From an uncultured Pelagibacteraceae bacterium (GTDB lineage: Bacteria > Pseudomonadota > Alphaproteobacteria > Pelagibacterales > Pelagibacteraceae), in assembly GCA_902617025.1 (NCBI GenBank), contig CACMVB010000003.1:106352-170351 (forward strand): a DNA stretch of 64,000 nucleotides. The letters run 5' to 3'. The translations under genes and the position numbers were made by a program. Shown here one piece after another: positions 53,048 to 61,617 of the stretch. Each line of letters starts with the position of its first letter. The stretch's first letter is position 1. The notes beneath the pieces are model-generated. The model had not been told where the DNA came from, searched no databases, and was given only the letters and a program-made list of their open reading frames with translations.

Positions 53048-54094
53048 ATGTCAAAAATTGTAATTATTGGTGCAGGTGCAATGGGATCAGCTTTTGCTTT
53101 ACCTTGTTTAGATAATAATCATGATATAAATATTGTTGGGACACACCTAGAAAACGATTTTATTGATGAATTAAAAAAAAATAACAATTTACACCCAGGA
53201 TTAAAAGTAGAAATCCCACAAGAAGTAAAAATATTTAAGTTTGAAAAATTTGATGAGTTATTGAAATCAAATGTTGAATTGATAGTACTTGGTGTAAGCT
53301 CAAAAGGAATAGAATGGGTGGCAGATCAATTAAGTAGAATTTATCATGATGGAAAGGTTCCAAAATTGTTAATGCTTACAAAAGGCTTAAGTATTCATAA
53401 TAATGAATATGAATTATTAGTAGGTAAACTAGAAAGATTATTAGTAAAAAGAAAAATTAAAAATGTTGATATATCAGCAGTAGGAGGACCTTGTTTGGCC
53501 ACAGGTTTAGCTAATAGAGTTCACAGCAGTGTAGTAATTGCAAACAAAAATATTCAAATAGCTAAGAAAATAGCTGATATGCTTAACACAAGTTATTATC
53601 ATACATCTTATTCAGATGATCTAAATGGAGTTGAAGTATCAGCTGCAATTAAAAATATTTTTTCTATGGCAGTTGGAGCTGCAAAGGGATTGTGTAGTAA
53701 AAATATATCTAATGACATTAGAGAAAAGAATTATTTAAATACTGCCTCAGTGCTTATTAAACAATCAATTTTTGAAATGGAAATTTTTGTAGAGCATCTA
53801 AAAGGAAAAAAAGAGACCGTTAAAGGGTTAGCTGGATTAGGAGATCTCTACGTAAGTTCGGGCGGAGGAAGAAATGCTAAAATGGGAGCTTATATTGGAG
53901 AAGGCTTAACATTCTCAGAAGCAAAAAAAACAAAAATGGAAAAAGTTACTGTTGAAGGAGCTGATCTAGCAAAAGAGATAGCAAAAAAAGTAAATCAAGA
54001 TTTTGACGAAAAAAAATTACCTTTAATGCTAAGTATGATTAATGCTATTGTTGAAGATAAAAAACTTGATTTAAATTGGGAATCTTTTAGATGA
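53048..54094 (+). CDS. gpsA: Divergent NAD(P)-dependent glycerol-3-phosphate dehydrogenase (GpsA-like)
   Basis: IVIIGAGAMGSAFALPC, LTKGLS, GVEVSAAIKNIFSMAVGAAKGL, GLAGLGDLYVSSGGGRNAKMGAYIGEG. Confidence 0.82.
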   Translation: MSKIVIIGAGAMGSAFALPCLDNNHDINIVGTHLENDFIDELKKNNNLHPGLKVEIPQEVKIFKFEKFDELLKSNVELIVLGVSSKGIEWVADQLSRIYHDGKVPKLLMLTKGLSIHNNEYELLVGKLERLLVKRKIKNVDISAVGGPCLATGLANRVHSSVVIANKNIQIAKKIADMLNTSYYHTSYSDDLNGVEVSAAIKNIFSMAVGAAKGLCSKNISNDIREKNYLNTASVLIKQSIFEMEIFVEHLKGKKETVKGLAGLGDLYVSSGGGRNAKMGAYIGEGLTFSEAKKTKMEKVTVEGADLAKEIAKKVNQDFDEKKLPLMLSMINAIVEDKKLDLNWESFR

Positions 54095-55572
54095 AGAAGT
54101 TTATTATTTCAATTGATGCAGGAACAACATCTAATAGATCAATATTATTTGATTTGAAAGGTAAGCCAATTTTTTCTTCACAAAAAGAATTTACGCAATA
54201 TTTTCCGAAAAGTGGGTGGGTTGAACATAATCCAGATGAAATTTGGAAAACAACAATAAAAACTTTAAAGGACGTGATACAAAAAGCTAAACGTCTAAAA
54301 GGCAAAATCCTAAGCATTGGAATTACCAACCAAAGAGAGACCACGGTTTTATGGGATAAGAAAACAGGCAAACCTGTTTATAAAGCTATTGTTTGGCAAG
54401 ATAGAAGAACTGAAGATTTTTGTAAAAAGTTGAGAAAGCAAAATAAGGATACAATGGTTTTTAATAAAACCGGACTTTTGATTGACTCATATTTTTCAGG
54501 AACAAAAATTAAATGGATCCTAGATAATGTTCCAAAAGCACGGCAATTAATGAATAAGAAACAGTTGTTATTTGGAACTATTGATAGTTTTTTAATTTGG
54601 AGACTAACAAAGGGAAAAGTTCATGCTACAGATGCAACAAATGCTAGCAGGACAATGATATATAATATCTCCTCAAATAAATGGGATGATGCAATATTAA
54701 ATTTGCTAAAAATCAAAAAACATATTCTTCCCGAAGTAAAAAATTGTGCTGATGATTACGGTCAGACTCACTCATCGATTACAGGTAAGTCTATACCAAT
54801 AAATGGCGTAGTAGGGGATCAGCAATCAGCTACAATTGGACAATGTTGTTTTGAACCAGGTTCTTTAAAGAGCACTTATGGAACTGGAGCTTTTGTATTA
54901 TTAAATACTGGTTCTAAAAAGATTTACTCAAAAAATAGATTATTAACGACTATTGCTTACAGAATTAATGGAAAGACAACTTATGCGATGGAGGGGTCTA
55001 TTTTTATAGCTGGAGCAGGTATTCAATGGTTAAGAGATAGAATGAAATTTTTTAAGAAAGCTCCTGAAACAGAAAAAATAGTTAAATCACTTAAAGATAA
55101 CAATGATATTTATTTAGTTCCAGCTTTCACTGGATTAGGCGCACCTTATTGGAACGCTAATGCAAGAGGAGTGTTAAGTGGTATAACAAGAGACACAAGC
55201 CCAAAAGAAATAGTAAGAGCTACAATTGAAGCAGTGGCTTACCAAACTCATGATCTTTTTGAAGCCATGAAACACGACGGTTTAAGACCAAAAATTGTAA
55301 AAGTAGATGGTGGAATGGTTATGAATAATTGGTTTTCACAATTTTTATCTGACATTGTAAACGTAAAAGTTTTAAGACCAAAAGTACAAGAAACAACTGC
55401 ATTAGGTGCAGCTTTTATGGCTGGTCTTAATATTGGAGTTTACAAATCCTTAAAAGATATTTCTAAAAACTGGCAATTGGATAAAAAGTTTTCCTCAAAA
55501 ATGAAAAATTCATCGAGAAACATTCTAATTGATGGCTGGGAAAAAGCTGTTAAGCGCGCCTTAATCAACTAA
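54091..55572 (+). CDS. glpK: Glycerol kinase
   Basis: SIDAGTTSNRSILFD, GITNQRETTVLWDKKTGKPVYKAIVWQDRRT, YGTGAFVLLNTG, KVDGGMVMNNWFSQF. Confidence 0.96.
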   Translation: MKKFIISIDAGTTSNRSILFDLKGKPIFSSQKEFTQYFPKSGWVEHNPDEIWKTTIKTLKDVIQKAKRLKGKILSIGITNQRETTVLWDKKTGKPVYKAIVWQDRRTEDFCKKLRKQNKDTMVFNKTGLLIDSYFSGTKIKWILDNVPKARQLMNKKQLLFGTIDSFLIWRLTKGKVHATDATNASRTMIYNISSNKWDDAILNLLKIKKHILPEVKNCADDYGQTHSSITGKSIPINGVVGDQQSATIGQCCFEPGSLKSTYGTGAFVLLNTGSKKIYSKNRLLTTIAYRINGKTTYAMEGSIFIAGAGIQWLRDRMKFFKKAPETEKIVKSLKDNNDIYLVPAFTGLGAPYWNANARGVLSGITRDTSPKEIVRATIEAVAYQTHDLFEAMKHDGLRPKIVKVDGGMVMNNWFSQFLSDIVNVKVLRPKVQETTALGAAFMAGLNIGVYKSLKDISKNWQLDKKFSSKMKNSSRNILIDGWEKAVKRALIN

Positions 55573-55677
55573 TACACACTTAAGAGTTGTAATTTGGAAA
55601 CTTTCTGCACTGTACTTTTTAGTTTTATTTTGGTTCAATAAGAAATCAAAAAACAACAACAACGAGGGAAATAATCT

Positions 55678-57411
55678 ATGTTTAAAACATTAAAGAATAT
55701 TTTAGCTGTTGCTGTTTCAATTTCTCTTATAACTATTTCTAACGCTGTAGCTGACGGACACGGAGCTGCAATTAAGAAATGGTCTAATGGTGAGTTTAGT
55801 CTTTCAACAATTTCTGCAAAAGAAAGAGAGAAAGAACTTAATTGGTTTCATGATGCTGCAAAGCCATTCAAAGGAATGGAAATAAATGTATTGTCAGAAA
55901 CAATTCCAACTCACGAATATGAGTCAAAAGTTTTAACAAAAGCTTTTGAAGAAATAACTGGAATTAAAGTTAATCACCAGTTACTTGGAGAAGGAGAAGT
56001 AGTACAAGCTGTACAAACTCAAATGCAAACTGGAAGAAACTTATATGATGCATACATCAATGACTCTGATTTGATCGGTACGCACTCAAGACTTCAGTTA
56101 GCAGTAAACTTAACAAAGTGGATGAAAGGTGAAGGTAAAGATGTAACTTTACCAACATTAGATATCGATGATTTCATCGGTAAATCATTTACTACAGGTC
56201 CAGATGGTGATTTATATCAATTACCTGACCAACAATTTGCTAACCTTTACTGGTTTAGAAAAGATTGGTTTGACAGACCTGAAATCAAAAAAGGTTTCAA
56301 AGCTAAATACGGATACGATCTAGGTGTACCAGTAAACTGGTCTGCTTACGAAGATATCGCTGAATACTTTACAAAAGACGTAAAGAATATTGACGGTGTT
56401 AGAGTATACGGTCACATGGACTACGGTAAGAGAGCTCCAGACTTAGGATGGAGAATGACTGACGCGTGGTTATCAATGGCTGGCGCAGGTTCAGTTGGTA
56501 AACCAAATGGTGTACCAGTTGACGAGTGGGGAATAAGAATGGAAAAAGGTTCTTGTAACCCAGTTGGTGCTGACGTAGCAAGAGGTGGGGCTGCTAATGG
56601 TCCTGCTGCCGTATATGCAATCAGAAAATGGGACGAGTGGTTAAGAGCTTATGCCCCTCCAGGTGCTGCAGCGATGGACTTCTATCAGTCTCTGCCAGCT
56701 TTATCATCAGGAAACGTTGCACAGCAAATTTTCTGGTATACAGCATTCACGGCATCAATGGTTGCTCCAAAGAGTTCTGGAAACAAAACAGTTGATGATA
56801 ACGGTAATCCTTTATGGAGAATGGGACCATCACCAAAAGGTCCTTACTGGGATGAAGGTATGAAGCTTGGTTATCAAGATGCTGGATCATGGACTTTATT
56901 TAAGTCTACTCCAGTTGATAGAAGAAAAGCTGCATGGCTATACGCTCAGTTTGTAGTATCAAAAACTGTTGATCTTAAGAAAAGTGATGTTGGTTTAACT
57001 ATCATTAGAGATAGTACAATTAATCACAAGCACTTTACTAAAAGAGCTCCAAAACTTGGTGGACTTGTAGAATTCTACAGATCTAAAAATAGAGTATTGT
57101 GGTCACCGACAGGTATCAATGTTCCGGACTATCCGAAACTTGCTCAAATCTGGTGGCAACAAATTGGAGATGTAAACTCAGGTGCGTTTACTCCACAACA
57201 AGCTATGGATCGTCTTGCAGAAGAGATGAACTTAGTTATGTCTCGTATGGAAGCTGCTGATAAAGCAAACAATACATACGGTGGATGTGGTCCAAGATTA
57301 GCTAAGCCGAAAGGCGCTGATTATTGGTTGAAACAACCAGGATCGCCAAAAGCTAAACGTGATGAGAAACCTAAAGGTAAAACAGTTCCATTCGAAAGAG
57401 CTTGGAAGTAA
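55678..57411 (+). CDS. glpV: Glycerol-type ABC transporter periplasmic substrate-binding protein (GlpV-like)
   Basis: Signal peptide; family 1 solute-binding protein; immediately precedes GlpS/T/P/Q/U-like genes and follows glpK. Confidence 0.85.
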   Translation: MFKTLKNILAVAVSISLITISNAVADGHGAAIKKWSNGEFSLSTISAKEREKELNWFHDAAKPFKGMEINVLSETIPTHEYESKVLTKAFEEITGIKVNHQLLGEGEVVQAVQTQMQTGRNLYDAYINDSDLIGTHSRLQLAVNLTKWMKGEGKDVTLPTLDIDDFIGKSFTTGPDGDLYQLPDQQFANLYWFRKDWFDRPEIKKGFKAKYGYDLGVPVNWSAYEDIAEYFTKDVKNIDGVRVYGHMDYGKRAPDLGWRMTDAWLSMAGAGSVGKPNGVPVDEWGIRMEKGSCNPVGADVARGGAANGPAAVYAIRKWDEWLRAYAPPGAAAMDFYQSLPALSSGNVAQQIFWYTAFTASMVAPKSSGNKTVDDNGNPLWRMGPSPKGPYWDEGMKLGYQDAGSWTLFKSTPVDRRKAAWLYAQFVVSKTVDLKKSDVGLTIIRDSTINHKHFTKRAPKLGGLVEFYRSKNRVLWSPTGINVPDYPKLAQIWWQQIGDVNSGAFTPQQAMDRLAEEMNLVMSRMEAADKANNTYGGCGPRLAKPKGADYWLKQPGSPKAKRDEKPKGKTVPFERAWK

Positions 57412-57431
57412 TTTAGGTTTAATCTAAATTT

Positions 57432-57459
57432 AAAGGGGGCTTAACGGCCCCCTTTTTTT
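57432..57459 (+). terminator. Rho-independent terminator-like hairpin between glpV and glpS
   Basis: GGGGGC-TTAACG-GCCCCC followed by T7. Confidence 0.88.
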
Positions 57460-57479
57460 AAAACAGATTTCAAAAAAAT

Positions 57480-58544
57480 ATGAGCTTAGAATTAAAAAAC
57501 GTAGAAAAAAAAATAGGGTTAGATACTCATATTTATCCAACAAATTTAAAATTAGAAAAAAATACAATTAATATTCTCTTAGGGTCTACTTTAGCCGGAA
57601 AGACGACTTTAATGCAGATTATGGCTGGCCTAGATAAACCAACATCAGGAGAGATTTGGTTTAACAATGAGAATGTGACAGGTATGAAAGTTCAAAAAAG
57701 AAATGTCTCAATGGTTTACCAGCAATTTATTAATTACCCCAATTTCACAGTTTATGACAACATTGCATCCCCATTAAAAATTACTGGAGTAAGTTCAGAT
57801 GAAACAAAACAAAGAGTTGGGAAAGTTGCAGAATTACTAAAACTCTCTGGAATGTTGAATAAAAAACCAAATGAGCTTTCTGGAGGACAACAACAAAGAA
57901 CTGCTTTAGCAAGAGCACTTGTAAAAGACTCAGACCTAATTCTTTTAGATGAACCACTTGCAAACTTAGATTTTAAATTAAGAGAAGAATTAAGAGAAGA
58001 ATTACCAAAATTATTTGAAAATAGAGATTGTATTGTAGTTTACGCAACCACAGAACCCTCAGAAGCTCTACTCTTAGGCGGTAATACTGCAACGTTACAG
58101 GAAGGTAAGATTATTCAATATGGAAAAACTTTAGATACTTATAATAAACCTAACTCTTTAGTTTCAGCCCAGGTCTTTAGTGATCCACCAATGAATATTG
58201 CTAAAATAAAAAAATCAGGAGACCAGTGTTCATTTTTACAAAATGACATTCAATGGAAAACTAAATTAAATATCAAAGATGGTGAATATAAAGTAGGTAT
58301 TCGACCCCACAATATTACCACGTATAAAGAGGGCAACAATACACTTGAGATAAAAGGTAAAGTTTTAATTTCTGAAATTAGTGGCTCTGAGAGCTTAATC
58401 CACTTTACTAACGGAAATTTGAGTTGGGTTTCTTTATCAAACGGAGTTTTTCAAAAAAACGTTGGCGATGAGATGAACTTGTACATGAATACAGATGAGT
58501 TTGTTTATTTTGATCAAAATGAAAGGTTAGTATCTAATGGCTAA
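57480..58544 (+). CDS. glpS: Glycerol ABC transporter ATPase GlpS-like
   Basis: LLGSTLAGKTTLMQIMAGLD, VSMVYQQFINYPNFTVYDNIASPL, LSGGQQQRTALARALVKD, LLDEPLANLD. Confidence 0.85.
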   Translation: MSLELKNVEKKIGLDTHIYPTNLKLEKNTINILLGSTLAGKTTLMQIMAGLDKPTSGEIWFNNENVTGMKVQKRNVSMVYQQFINYPNFTVYDNIASPLKITGVSSDETKQRVGKVAELLKLSGMLNKKPNELSGGQQQRTALARALVKDSDLILLDEPLANLDFKLREELREELPKLFENRDCIVVYATTEPSEALLLGGNTATLQEGKIIQYGKTLDTYNKPNSLVSAQVFSDPPMNIAKIKKSGDQCSFLQNDIQWKTKLNIKDGEYKVGIRPHNITTYKEGNNTLEIKGKVLISEISGSESLIHFTNGNLSWVSLSNGVFQKNVGDEMNLYMNTDEFVYFDQNERLVSNG

Positions 58545-59601
58545 AGTTACATTGAAAGGTTTAAGCCATAGTTATTTAAAAACTCAGTCTTCAGAAGCTG
58601 ACTGGGCAATCAGAGGAGTAGACATTGATTGGAATGATGGTGGCGCTTACGCTTTATTAGGCCCTTCAGGTTGTGGAAAGACAACATTGTTAAATATCAT
58701 TTCTGGATTAATTACACCAACTAAAGGCGATATATTATTTGATGATAAAGTTATTTCAGGGTTGAATCCTGTAGAGAGAAATATTGCACAGATTTTTCAA
58801 TTCCCGGTTATTTATGACACGATGACAGTGTATGATAATTTAGCTTTTCCTTTAAGAAATAGAAAAATTCCAGAGGAAGAAATCAAAGCAAAAGTTCATG
58901 AGATAGCAGAAATGTTAGAATTATCTTCAACATTAAATAATAGAGCTTCTGGTCTAACTGCAGATGGTAAACAAAAAATTTCACTAGGGCGTGGATTGGT
59001 AAGATCAGATGTAAATGCTATTATGTTTGATGAACCATTAACAGTAATCGATCCACATTTGAAATGGATTTTAAGATCTAAACTTAAAGAACTTCATCAA
59101 AAGATTAATAGAACAATGATTTATGTTACACACGATCAAACAGAAGCTTTAACATTTGCTGATCAAGTAGTTGTAATGCATGAAGGTCAAATTGTTCAAA
59201 CAGGAACACCAGTAGATTTGTTTGAAAAACCAAAGCATACATTTGTTGGATATTTTATTGGTTCACCAGGCATGAATGTTTTACCTTGTCAAATTAAAGG
59301 AAATGATGTGATCGTTAATGGAAAAAAAATAGAAACTCACCAACAAATTAAAAAAAGTAATTTTAACAAGACAGAGGTTGGTGTGAGACCTGAATTTATA
59401 TCTTTTAGTAATGAAGGAGTTCCAGTTAAAGTTTTATCGGTAAGCAATACTGGAAGGCATAAAATTGTAGATACCGAAAGTGAAACCGGAAAAATTAAAA
59501 TCATTGCAAAATCTAATGAAGATATACCTTCAGGATCTGCATTTTTAAAATTTAAAAAAGAATATACTTACACATATGGAGATAGTTGGATAATTGAATG
59601 A
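58537..59601 (+). CDS. glpT: Glycerol ABC transporter ATPase GlpT-like
   Basis: LLGPSGCGKTTLLNIISGL, IAQIFQFPVIYDTMTVYDNLAFPL, LTADGKQKISLGRGLV, YVTHDQTEALTFADQV. Confidence 0.85.
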   Translation: MAKVTLKGLSHSYLKTQSSEADWAIRGVDIDWNDGGAYALLGPSGCGKTTLLNIISGLITPTKGDILFDDKVISGLNPVERNIAQIFQFPVIYDTMTVYDNLAFPLRNRKIPEEEIKAKVHEIAEMLELSSTLNNRASGLTADGKQKISLGRGLVRSDVNAIMFDEPLTVIDPHLKWILRSKLKELHQKINRTMIYVTHDQTEALTFADQVVVMHEGQIVQTGTPVDLFEKPKHTFVGYFIGSPGMNVLPCQIKGNDVIVNGKKIETHQQIKKSNFNKTEVGVRPEFISFSNEGVPVKVLSVSNTGRHKIVDTESETGKIKIIAKSNEDIPSGSAFLKFKKEYTYTYGDSWIIE

Positions 59602-60464
59602 ATAAAACAGTAAATCAAAAAGCATGGTTCTTTGTAATACCGGTATTTGTACTGGTAGCTTTCAATGCCATTATCCCACTAATGACAGTAGTAAACTATG
59701 CTTTCCAGGAAACTTTTGGGAATAATGTTTTTATGTGGGAAGGCACAAGATGGTTTAAACAAATCATGTTATCCGAAAGATTTCACGCATCACTCGGTAG
59801 ACAATTTTTATTTACATTTATAATTTTATTTATTCAAATTCCATTAGGAATAGCTATTGCTCTTACTATGCCTAAAGAGGGAATAGGAGTACCCGTTTGT
59901 TTAGTTTTAATGTCCATGCCACTTTTAATTCCTTGGAACGTTGTAGGAGCTATGTGGAATATTTTTGCGTTACCAGATATTGGTTTTTTAGGTCATTCAC
60001 TTAATGCTTTGGGATTTGATTATAACTTTACTCAACAAATTGGCGATGCTTGGTTCACAACTATACTAATGGATGTATGGCATTGGACATCGTTAGTAGT
60101 TTTATTGTCTTATGCAGGATTAAGATCTATCCAACCTGCTTACTATCAAGCAGCAGAAATTGATGGGGCTAGTCGTTGGGCAATTTTTACGAAAATTGAA
60201 TTACCTAAAATGAAAAAAGTATTAACGATAGCAATACTTTTAAGATTTATGGACAGTTTCATGATTTATACAGAGCCATTTGTTTTAACTGGAGGCGGTC
60301 CAGGCAATGCTACTGCATTTTTATCTATAGACTTAGTTAAAATGGCATTAGGACAGTTTGATTTAGGACCAGCTGCTGCGATGTCGTTGATATACTTTTT
60401 TATAGTACTTTTAGTTTGTTGGGTATTCTACACATTAATGATGAGAAATGAGGAGAAATCATGA
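59598..60464 (+). CDS. glpP: Glycerol ABC transporter permease GlpP-like
   Basis: Six TM; EIDGASRWAIFTKIELPKMKKV EAA-loop; follows glpT. Confidence 0.87.
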   Translation: MNKTVNQKAWFFVIPVFVLVAFNAIIPLMTVVNYAFQETFGNNVFMWEGTRWFKQIMLSERFHASLGRQFLFTFIILFIQIPLGIAIALTMPKEGIGVPVCLVLMSMPLLIPWNVVGAMWNIFALPDIGFLGHSLNALGFDYNFTQQIGDAWFTTILMDVWHWTSLVVLLSYAGLRSIQPAYYQAAEIDGASRWAIFTKIELPKMKKVLTIAILLRFMDSFMIYTEPFVLTGGGPGNATAFLSIDLVKMALGQFDLGPAAAMSLIYFFIVLLVCWVFYTLMMRNEEKS

Positions 60465-61261
60465 AGAAAGCTAAGTGGGTAGTTCCTACAATTTATATAA
60501 TTTTCTTGATGCTTCCAATTTATTGGTTGCTAAACATGTCATTTAAAACGACAACTGAGATTATAAACACTTACACATTATGGCCTCAAGAATTTACATT
60601 AGATAATTATAAGAAAATTTTTACCGACAGTACTTGGTATACTGGGTATCTTAATTCTATTTATTACGTAGTCATGAACACTGTGATTTCAGTGGCTGCT
60701 GCACTACCTGCAGCTTACGCTTTTTCTAGATATAAATTTTTAGGGGATAAACATTTATTTTTCTGGTTATTAACTAACAGAATGGCCCCACCAGCAGTAT
60801 TTGCTTTGCCATTTTTTCAATTTTATTCATCAGTAAACTTGTTTGATACTCATGTGGCTGTAGCTTTGTCACATTGTTTGTTTAATATTCCATTAGCGGT
60901 TTGGATTTTAGAGGGATTTATGTCTTCTGTGCCAAAAGAACTGGATGAAACAGCTTATGTGGATGGTTATTCGTTTTGGAGATTTTTCTTCAAGATATTT
61001 ATTCCAACAATTACTGCAGGCATAGGTATTACAATGTTTTTCTGTTTTATGTTTTCTTGGGTTGAATTATTATTAGCAAAGACATTAACTGCGGTGGCAG
61101 CAAAACCGATCGCTGCAACAATGACAAGAACCGCAAGTACATCAGGATATGAATTAGGACTACTTGCTGCTGCTGGAAGTTTGACAATTATACCTGGTGC
61201 AATAGTAATTTACTTTGTAAGAAACTATATAGCGAAAGGATTTGCATTAGGAAGAGTATGA
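60461..61261 (+). CDS. glpQ: Glycerol ABC transporter permease GlpQ-like
   Basis: Six TM; ELDETAYVDGYSFWRFFFKIFIPTITAGI EAA-loop. Confidence 0.88.
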   Translation: MKKAKWVVPTIYIIFLMLPIYWLLNMSFKTTTEIINTYTLWPQEFTLDNYKKIFTDSTWYTGYLNSIYYVVMNTVISVAAALPAAYAFSRYKFLGDKHLFFWLLTNRMAPPAVFALPFFQFYSSVNLFDTHVAVALSHCLFNIPLAVWILEGFMSSVPKELDETAYVDGYSFWRFFFKIFIPTITAGIGITMFFCFMFSWVELLLAKTLTAVAAKPIAATMTRTASTSGYELGLLAAAGSLTIIPGAIVIYFVRNYIAKGFALGRV

Positions 61262-61617
61262 TGATGTTTAATGTTTTAAATGCCGCCACGTGGGGTGATA
61301 TGGCAAAAAAGAAAGAGAAGGGTTTCTTCGATTTTGAATTTATCACTTGGATGGCATGGACTTGGCAAACTGCAGCATTTTTTGTTTTTATAGCTTTATG
61401 TTTAACAGCAATGGTTATTTGGGAAAAAAAATCACCAGGAGGCAGTCCGAGAAAGGGAATTTTAGGATTAGACACAACTAGAGGCGACAGATTATTTATT
61501 TCGTTACTAGGCAGTGCGTTCATTCATTTATTTTGGTTGGCTCTAGTTGGAAGTGTATTGTGGATTGCAACAATAATTTGCATTGGCTATGCTGTTGTTG
61601 TATTTAGATACGTCTAA
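61258..61617 (+). CDS. glpU: Small membrane protein GlpU-like (DUF2160)
   Basis: WMAWTWQTAAFFVFIALCLTAMVIWE, GILGLDTTRGDRLFISLLGSAFIHLFWL; last gene of the transporter cluster. Confidence 0.85.
   Translation: MMMFNVLNAATWGDMAKKKEKGFFDFEFITWMAWTWQTAAFFVFIALCLTAMVIWEKKSPGGSPRKGILGLDTTRGDRLFISLLGSAFIHLFWLALVGSVLWIATIICIGYAVVVFRYV

Follow-up and report, generated by a model that had tools for sequence, protein, structure and literature searches.

Complementary motif changes in GlpS and GlpT predict one competent and one degenerate ATP site in a MalK-type glycerol importer

The CUT1 importers MalFGK2, UgpABCE and LpqY-SugABC have one ATPase gene, the product of which forms a homodimer with two canonical ATP sites. 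In an ABC dimer, each site takes its A-loop, Walker A and B, Q-loop and H-loop from one subunit and its signature from the partner, and the D-loops are located centrally (PMC7756269). Heterodimers with one degenerate site have been reviewed for TM287/288, TAP1/2, ABCG5/G8, CFTR and Pdr5; such sites are conserved among orthologues, where bound ATP may be a kind of durable glue (PMC7756269). Every human degenerate site has an altered signature and several have an altered H-loop as well, while the degeneracy of ABCG5/G8 comes from changes in the signature and Walker A (PMC7756269). RbsA and NupO, fused ATPases of type II importers, have also been reported to carry one degenerate ATP site (PMC11466899). 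The glpSTPQUV operon mediates glycerol uptake in R. leguminosarum VF39, as cited in the passages found of PMC7912956, and the same passages describe that derepression of its homologue in Cupriavidus metallidurans made the cells more resistant to zinc and cadmium through an unexplained mechanism. The passages found of PMC7912956 and PMC11223650 cover uptake, metal resistance and expression, with no discussion of ATPase motifs. In the literature searched, which did not include the primary R. leguminosarum paper, we found no report of a degenerate site in a MalK-type importer and none on the motifs of GlpS and GlpT. Degenerate sites are already known in exporters and fused importer ATPases; the predicted one in a MalK-type importer is, as far as we found, new here.

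The window (the whole stretch of 64,000 nucleotides that was analyzed) comes from a genome of 1.04 Mb and carries the same glycerol ABC operon as R. leguminosarum VF39 and, from what the passages found of PMC7912956 describe, C. metallidurans. Its GlpT is 99% identical to that of uncultured Pelagibacteraceae (SAR11), the closest named relatives at the glp locus. Open reading frames and a domain scan showed that the operon spans 54091-61617 in the order glpK-V-S-T-P-Q-U. The glycerol kinase-like ORF (glpK, 54091-55572), recognized by sequence and not by the domain scan, is located upstream of glpV. It is followed on the + strand by GlpV, a solute-binding protein with a homologue in glp loci (55678..57411; SBP_bac_1, PF01547), by the MalK-family ABC ATPases GlpS (57480..58544; ABC_tran, PF00005) and GlpT (58537..59601; PF00005 and OB_MalK), by the permeases GlpP (59598..60464) and GlpQ (60461..61261; both BPD_transp_1, PF00528), and by the small integral membrane protein GlpU (61258..61617; DUF2160, PF09928, E 2.7e-34). 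The gene set of glpSTPQUV, comprising two MalK-like ATPases, GlpP/GlpQ, GlpV and the DUF2160 protein GlpU with glpK nearby, is thus complete in the window, and by homology the operon product would be a glycerol transporter. No mention of DUF2160 (GlpU) was found in the literature searched. A GpsA-like glycerol-3-phosphate dehydrogenase lies immediately 5' of glpK (53048-54094), its best NCBIfam match being under the cut-off of that model. The R. leguminosarum operon differs from that of the window in that glpD and glpK flank glpSTPQUV.

GlpS and GlpT of the window are each 354 amino acids long and are encoded in frames that share 8 bases. The single-chain models (pLDDT 91.5 for GlpS and 89.5 for GlpT) have the MalK-family fold, with MalK-family ATPases as the best PDB matches, and both proteins carry the MalK-like C-terminal region. 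The Glp system has the ATPase fold, the regulatory region at the C-terminus, the permeases and the binding protein in common with MalFGK2, UgpABCE and LpqY-SugABC. It differs from these homodimers in having two distinct ATPase genes: where a MalK-type importer has one gene with the full canonical motif set, we found two genes in 179/179 loci, each with an incomplete set.

We collected operon stretches in two ways, 100 being anchored on DUF2160, which is independent of the ATPases, and 80 coming from named organisms through searches with GlpT patterns. The DUF2160 operon marker was present in 86/399 genomes of the phylum and in 27/61 near relatives, and the 100 anchored stretches are from these genomes. 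In all 179 loci with both genes in view, glpS is followed by glpT on one strand, and their frames overlap in several of them (the window, by 8 bases, L104 and L121); in the remaining two loci, the GlpT match starts <200 bases from the end of the stretch and glpS is out of view. The glp loci are distributed over Alpha-, Beta- and Gammaproteobacteria, with one in Desulfobulbaceae (L242). The 179 loci form 86 clusters below 80% identity, and this is the safer count because some genomes occur in both collections. Motif positions are given in MalK numbering by alignment of the 179 pairs.

The first-pass annotation had described the two ATPases of the window as carrying complementary degenerate motifs. 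Both ORFs were found at the coordinates given, and all of the quoted motifs were found letter for letter. In GlpS, Ile (57513..57515, + strand, as for all motifs below) replaces the A-loop aromatic (MalK Trp13), and the residue is non-aromatic in 177/179 GlpS, a call that depends on the alignment and leaves room for partial substitution by a nearby His or aromatic (residue 17 in the window). The Walker A GSTLAGKT (57582..57605) has Thr for Ser38 and Leu for Gly39 with the Lys kept. The description of this motif as non-canonical holds for these two departures from the ABC form GxSGxGK, but the sequence remains within the general P-loop consensus G-x4-GK[ST]. Thr38 and Lys42 are found in 179/179 GlpS, and position 39 is Leu in 130, Gly in 31, Gln in 11, Asn in 4, Ser in 2 and His in 1, so that 148/179 lack Gly39 and the overall form is GxTxxGKT. 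The Q-loop Gln82 (57720..57722), the Walker B Asp158-Glu159 (57948..57953), the signature LSGGQ (57876..57890) and the NLD of the D-loop ANLD (Asn163-Leu164-Asp165; 57960..57971) are all kept in 179/179. At the H-loop (YATTEP), Thr replaces the switch His (58050..58052); the residue is Thr in 137 and Ser in 42 of the 179 GlpS, and never His. The combination of an intact LSGGQ with a missing switch His, first noticed in the window, is thus present in every GlpS.

GlpT shows the opposite arrangement. The A-loop Tyr13 (58573..58575), the Walker A GPSGCGKT (58660..58683; canonical GxSGxGK, with Ser38, Gly39, Gly41 and Lys42), the Q-loop Gln82 (58798..58800), the Walker B Asp158-Glu159 with the predicted catalytic Glu (59029..59034) and the switch His192 (59131..59133) are canonical in 179/179, whereas LTADG stands in place of LSGGQ (58954..58968). 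Over the 179 GlpT, position 135, canonically Ser, is Thr in 124, Ser in 44, Gly in 6, Ala in 4 and Asp in 1; Gly136 is replaced by Ala (144) or Pro (35) throughout, and Gly137 by Asp in 178 and by Ala in 1. Gln138 is variable, and Arg141 is changed to Lys in 176. As a parallel, Gly137Asp falls on the position of CFTR G551D, a mutation that cripples the ATP site opposite. The D-loop is TVID for SNLD (59041..59052) with Asp165 kept, in 179/179. One of the GlpT search patterns was the D-loop stretch FDEPLTV, so the 80 pattern-found loci are biased to TVID, but the same D-loop is found in the 100 DUF2160-anchored operons and the window, which are free of this bias. The claim of a broken signature beside a canonical Walker A and switch His therefore extends to all 179 GlpT. 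The alignment of rhizobial and marine GlpS/GlpT that had been suggested as a check showed the complementary changes together in 179/179 operons.

If GlpS and GlpT form a head-to-tail heterodimer, the crosswise pairing drawn from the window alone holds for the whole set, with five deviating motifs on one composite site and the other site canonical at every residue checked. Predicted site 1 combines Tyr13, Ser38, Gly39, Lys42, Gln82, Asp158, Glu159 and His192 of GlpT with Ser135, Gly136, Gly137, Gln138, Asn163 and Asp165 of GlpS, all canonical in 179/179; GlpT would be the donor of P-loop, Walker B and His to this competent site and GlpS the donor of the signature. Predicted site 2 is altered in 179/179 at the A-loop, Walker A and H-loop of GlpS and at the signature and D-loop of GlpT, of which the lost A-loop aromatic and TVID are additions to the first-pass annotation. 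One fully canonical site opposite a site in which the signature and other catalytic motifs deviate is the picture of a degenerate heterodimer; replacement of the Walker B Glu, common but not defining for such sites, is absent, as Glu159 is present in 179/179 GlpS. With random placement, all five deviating motifs would fall on one side with a chance of 1/16, so that the motif map alone is suggestive and conservation carries the weight. The substituted residues Thr38 of GlpS and Asp137, Thr162, Val163 and Ile164 of GlpT are fixed or nearly so over the 86 clusters, which argues for maintenance and not decay; decay or sequencing error is ruled out by the identical pattern in 179 operons. These comparisons of sequences indicate that the GlpS/GlpT pattern is real, ancient and well conserved.

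As in the degenerate exporter heterodimers, the GlpS/GlpT changes are spread over both nucleotide-binding domains (NBDs), gather on one composite site and include the signature. The known heterodimers, however, are for the most part exporters or channels whose NBDs are joined to membrane domains, whereas GlpS and GlpT are separate ATPase subunits of an importer that depends on a binding protein, and the predicted degenerate site keeps the Walker B Glu, unlike most described degenerate sites. RbsA and NupO are single fused polypeptides in which the second Walker A has no Lys, while GlpST are encoded by two genes, are of MalK type and keep the Lys.

E. coli MalK and UgpC have canonical motifs, with signature glycines and switch His kept. 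The UgpC/MalK-like members, of the same class, among 42 control ABC ATPases likewise have the switch His and the signature glycines, in LSGGQ or a motif close to it. LSGGQ and His are also present in the UgpC-like ATPase of the window genome itself (L154/L266), and this canonical protein rules out a SAR11-wide drift of ABC motifs. From the controls, neither SAR11 biology nor MalK membership explains the pattern.

We found another pair of adjacent MalK-family ATPases linked to dihydroxyacetone (DHA) kinase in 20 loci (L281-L283, L285-L301), some of which overlap, L282 and L293 being the same place. In L281 (1560-8737), the two ATPases are accompanied by a binding protein, a pair of permeases and a small membrane protein of about 119 aa, and dihydroxyacetone kinase (DAK) genes adjoin the tandem pair in L281 and L283; the system is likely to take up dihydroxyacetone or a related C3 compound. 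Subunit b has Thr38 in GPTGAGKT (19/20), and subunit a has L[AS][GS]GD, with Asp for the signature Gln (20/20), so that one site is slightly altered. In contrast to GlpS/GlpT, the switch His, the Walker B Glu and the Walker A Gly39 are intact in both subunits. Provided that a is the counterpart of GlpT and b that of GlpS, the pair would show the same polarity in a mild form. No paper describing a DHA-kinase-linked two-ATPase importer was found in the literature search.

The branched-chain amino acid importers (HAAT) look like another crosswise degenerate pair. In E. coli (L284), LivG (livG, 740-1507) has the His but LAYGD, and LivF (livF, 25-738) keeps SGGE, but its switch His is replaced by Gln and its Q-loop Gln by Glu, the latter change being shared by L158 of the window genome. 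In a LivG/LivF-like pair of the window genome (L162), the subunit that keeps His likewise has the changed signature, and its partner, with Gln for His, has the good one; over E. coli, L162 and L158, the signatures are LAYGD/LSFGQ in LivG and SGGE/LSGGE in LivF. The crosswise logic is like that of GlpS/GlpT, whereas LivG/LivF belong to a distantly related family of NBDs that lacks the C-terminal domain of MalK. A paper describing LivG/LivF as a degenerate pair was not found in the literature search. Judged from these motifs, complementary asymmetry recurs in importers. The statement that it is less discussed in importers than in exporters is fair as a description of emphasis, but a degenerate site is on record for RbsA/NupO (PMC11466899) and E. 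coli LivG/LivF is analogous.

These results suggest, with a probability of about 0.83, that GlpS and GlpT form an obligate heterodimer in which site 1 hydrolyzes ATP and site 2 binds it with little or no hydrolysis. We infer the heterodimer geometry from MalK homology; the nucleotide occupancy of site 2, its loss of hydrolysis and the ATP stoichiometry are likewise predictions. The head-to-tail dimer would power glycerol import through GlpPQ(U)V. Its site 1, formed by the A-loop, Walker A/B, Q-loop and switch His of GlpT and the LSGGQ and D-loop of GlpS, would be complete and hydrolyze ATP. At site 2, the GlpS P-loop GxTxxGKT, without switch His or A-loop aromatic, would stand opposite L-T-A-D and TVID of GlpT; it probably binds nucleotide, because the Walker A Lys, the Q-loop Gln and both Walker B acids are kept. 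Without the His and the signature glycines, hydrolysis there would be slow or absent, and the site may serve as a hinge or clamp during turnover at site 1, at a cost of about 1 ATP per glycerol. The main uncertainty is residual hydrolysis at site 2, which is possible because the catalytic Glu of GlpS is intact, whereas most described degenerate sites change the Glu too. The retention of Walker A Gly39 in about one sixth of GlpS also counts against this reading.

Alternatively, both sites may hydrolyze ATP in an asymmetric two-site cycle, the changes merely tuning the rates. The intact catalytic Glu of both subunits and the mild asymmetry of the related DHA-kinase-linked pair, which keeps all catalytic residues, agree with such a cycle, but the replacement of the site 2 switch His by Thr/Ser and of the signature glycines by Ala/Pro-Asp, changes absent at these positions in the UgpC/MalK controls, makes it distinctly unlikely. 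It is unlikely, too, that the heterodimer forms with site 2 no longer an ATP site, being empty or holding ADP or another ligand. The lost A-loop aromatic would remove adenine stacking in 177/179 GlpS, and in 178/179 GlpT an Asp stands where the signature should meet the gamma-phosphate; however, the constant Lys42, Gln82, Asp158 and Glu159 of GlpS are hard to explain without Mg-nucleotide. We regard as very improbable a regulatory pocket, formed by the GlpS P-loop and GlpT Asp137 for ADP, phosphate or glycerol 3-phosphate, that would sense a downstream metabolite and set the import rate; if true, GlpST would combine a motor site and a sensor site in one importer.

MalK-type ATPases, the nearest solved relatives, act as homodimers (MalFGK2, SugABC, PotABC), which would speak for GlpS and GlpT as separate homodimers, or for one of them as a regulatory decoy. 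Such an arrangement is extremely improbable, since a homodimer of GlpS or of GlpT would not contain any complete site and the two genes are never apart in 179 loci.

In symmetric MalK2, the ATP per substrate and the need for both sites are hard to test because any mutation hits both. GlpST, present in marine SAR11 bacteria and in laboratory rhizobia, would as the predicted heterodimer be an old, widely distributed and naturally occurring version that has just one competent site, so that mutation of a single gene would allow either site to be studied on its own. A cost of one ATP per glycerol, if true, would also amount to a natural saving on an inexpensive C3 substrate, for which glycerol kinase consumes a further ATP. 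The DHA-linked pair, with its mild asymmetry, may be an intermediate in which the origin of degeneracy can be studied.

In a tree built without the motif columns, GlpS and GlpT each formed one clade (100/100 for both) on long stems, with the ordinary MalK/UgpC/PotA-like set on one side of a branch (97/83). The internal orders of the two clades largely agree, as expected of a co-inherited pair. Regarding a glp-specific duplication versus one common with the DHA-linked pair, the groupings GlpS+dhaB (53/66) and GlpT+dhaA (59/78) were unsupported, and a GlpS+GlpT grouping was not rejected (p-AU 0.64). The GlpT+dhaA grouping seen on the tree with motif columns (95/88) was lost once these columns were removed. 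Among the 179 pairs, Gly at GlpS position 39 occurs with Pro at GlpT position 136 in 31 cases, and Leu with Ala in 129/130, but this covariation was rejected as contact evidence, being one event on the tree and having no statistical weight. The pairing of GlpS Gly or Asn39 with GlpT Pro136 is found in essentially one clade.
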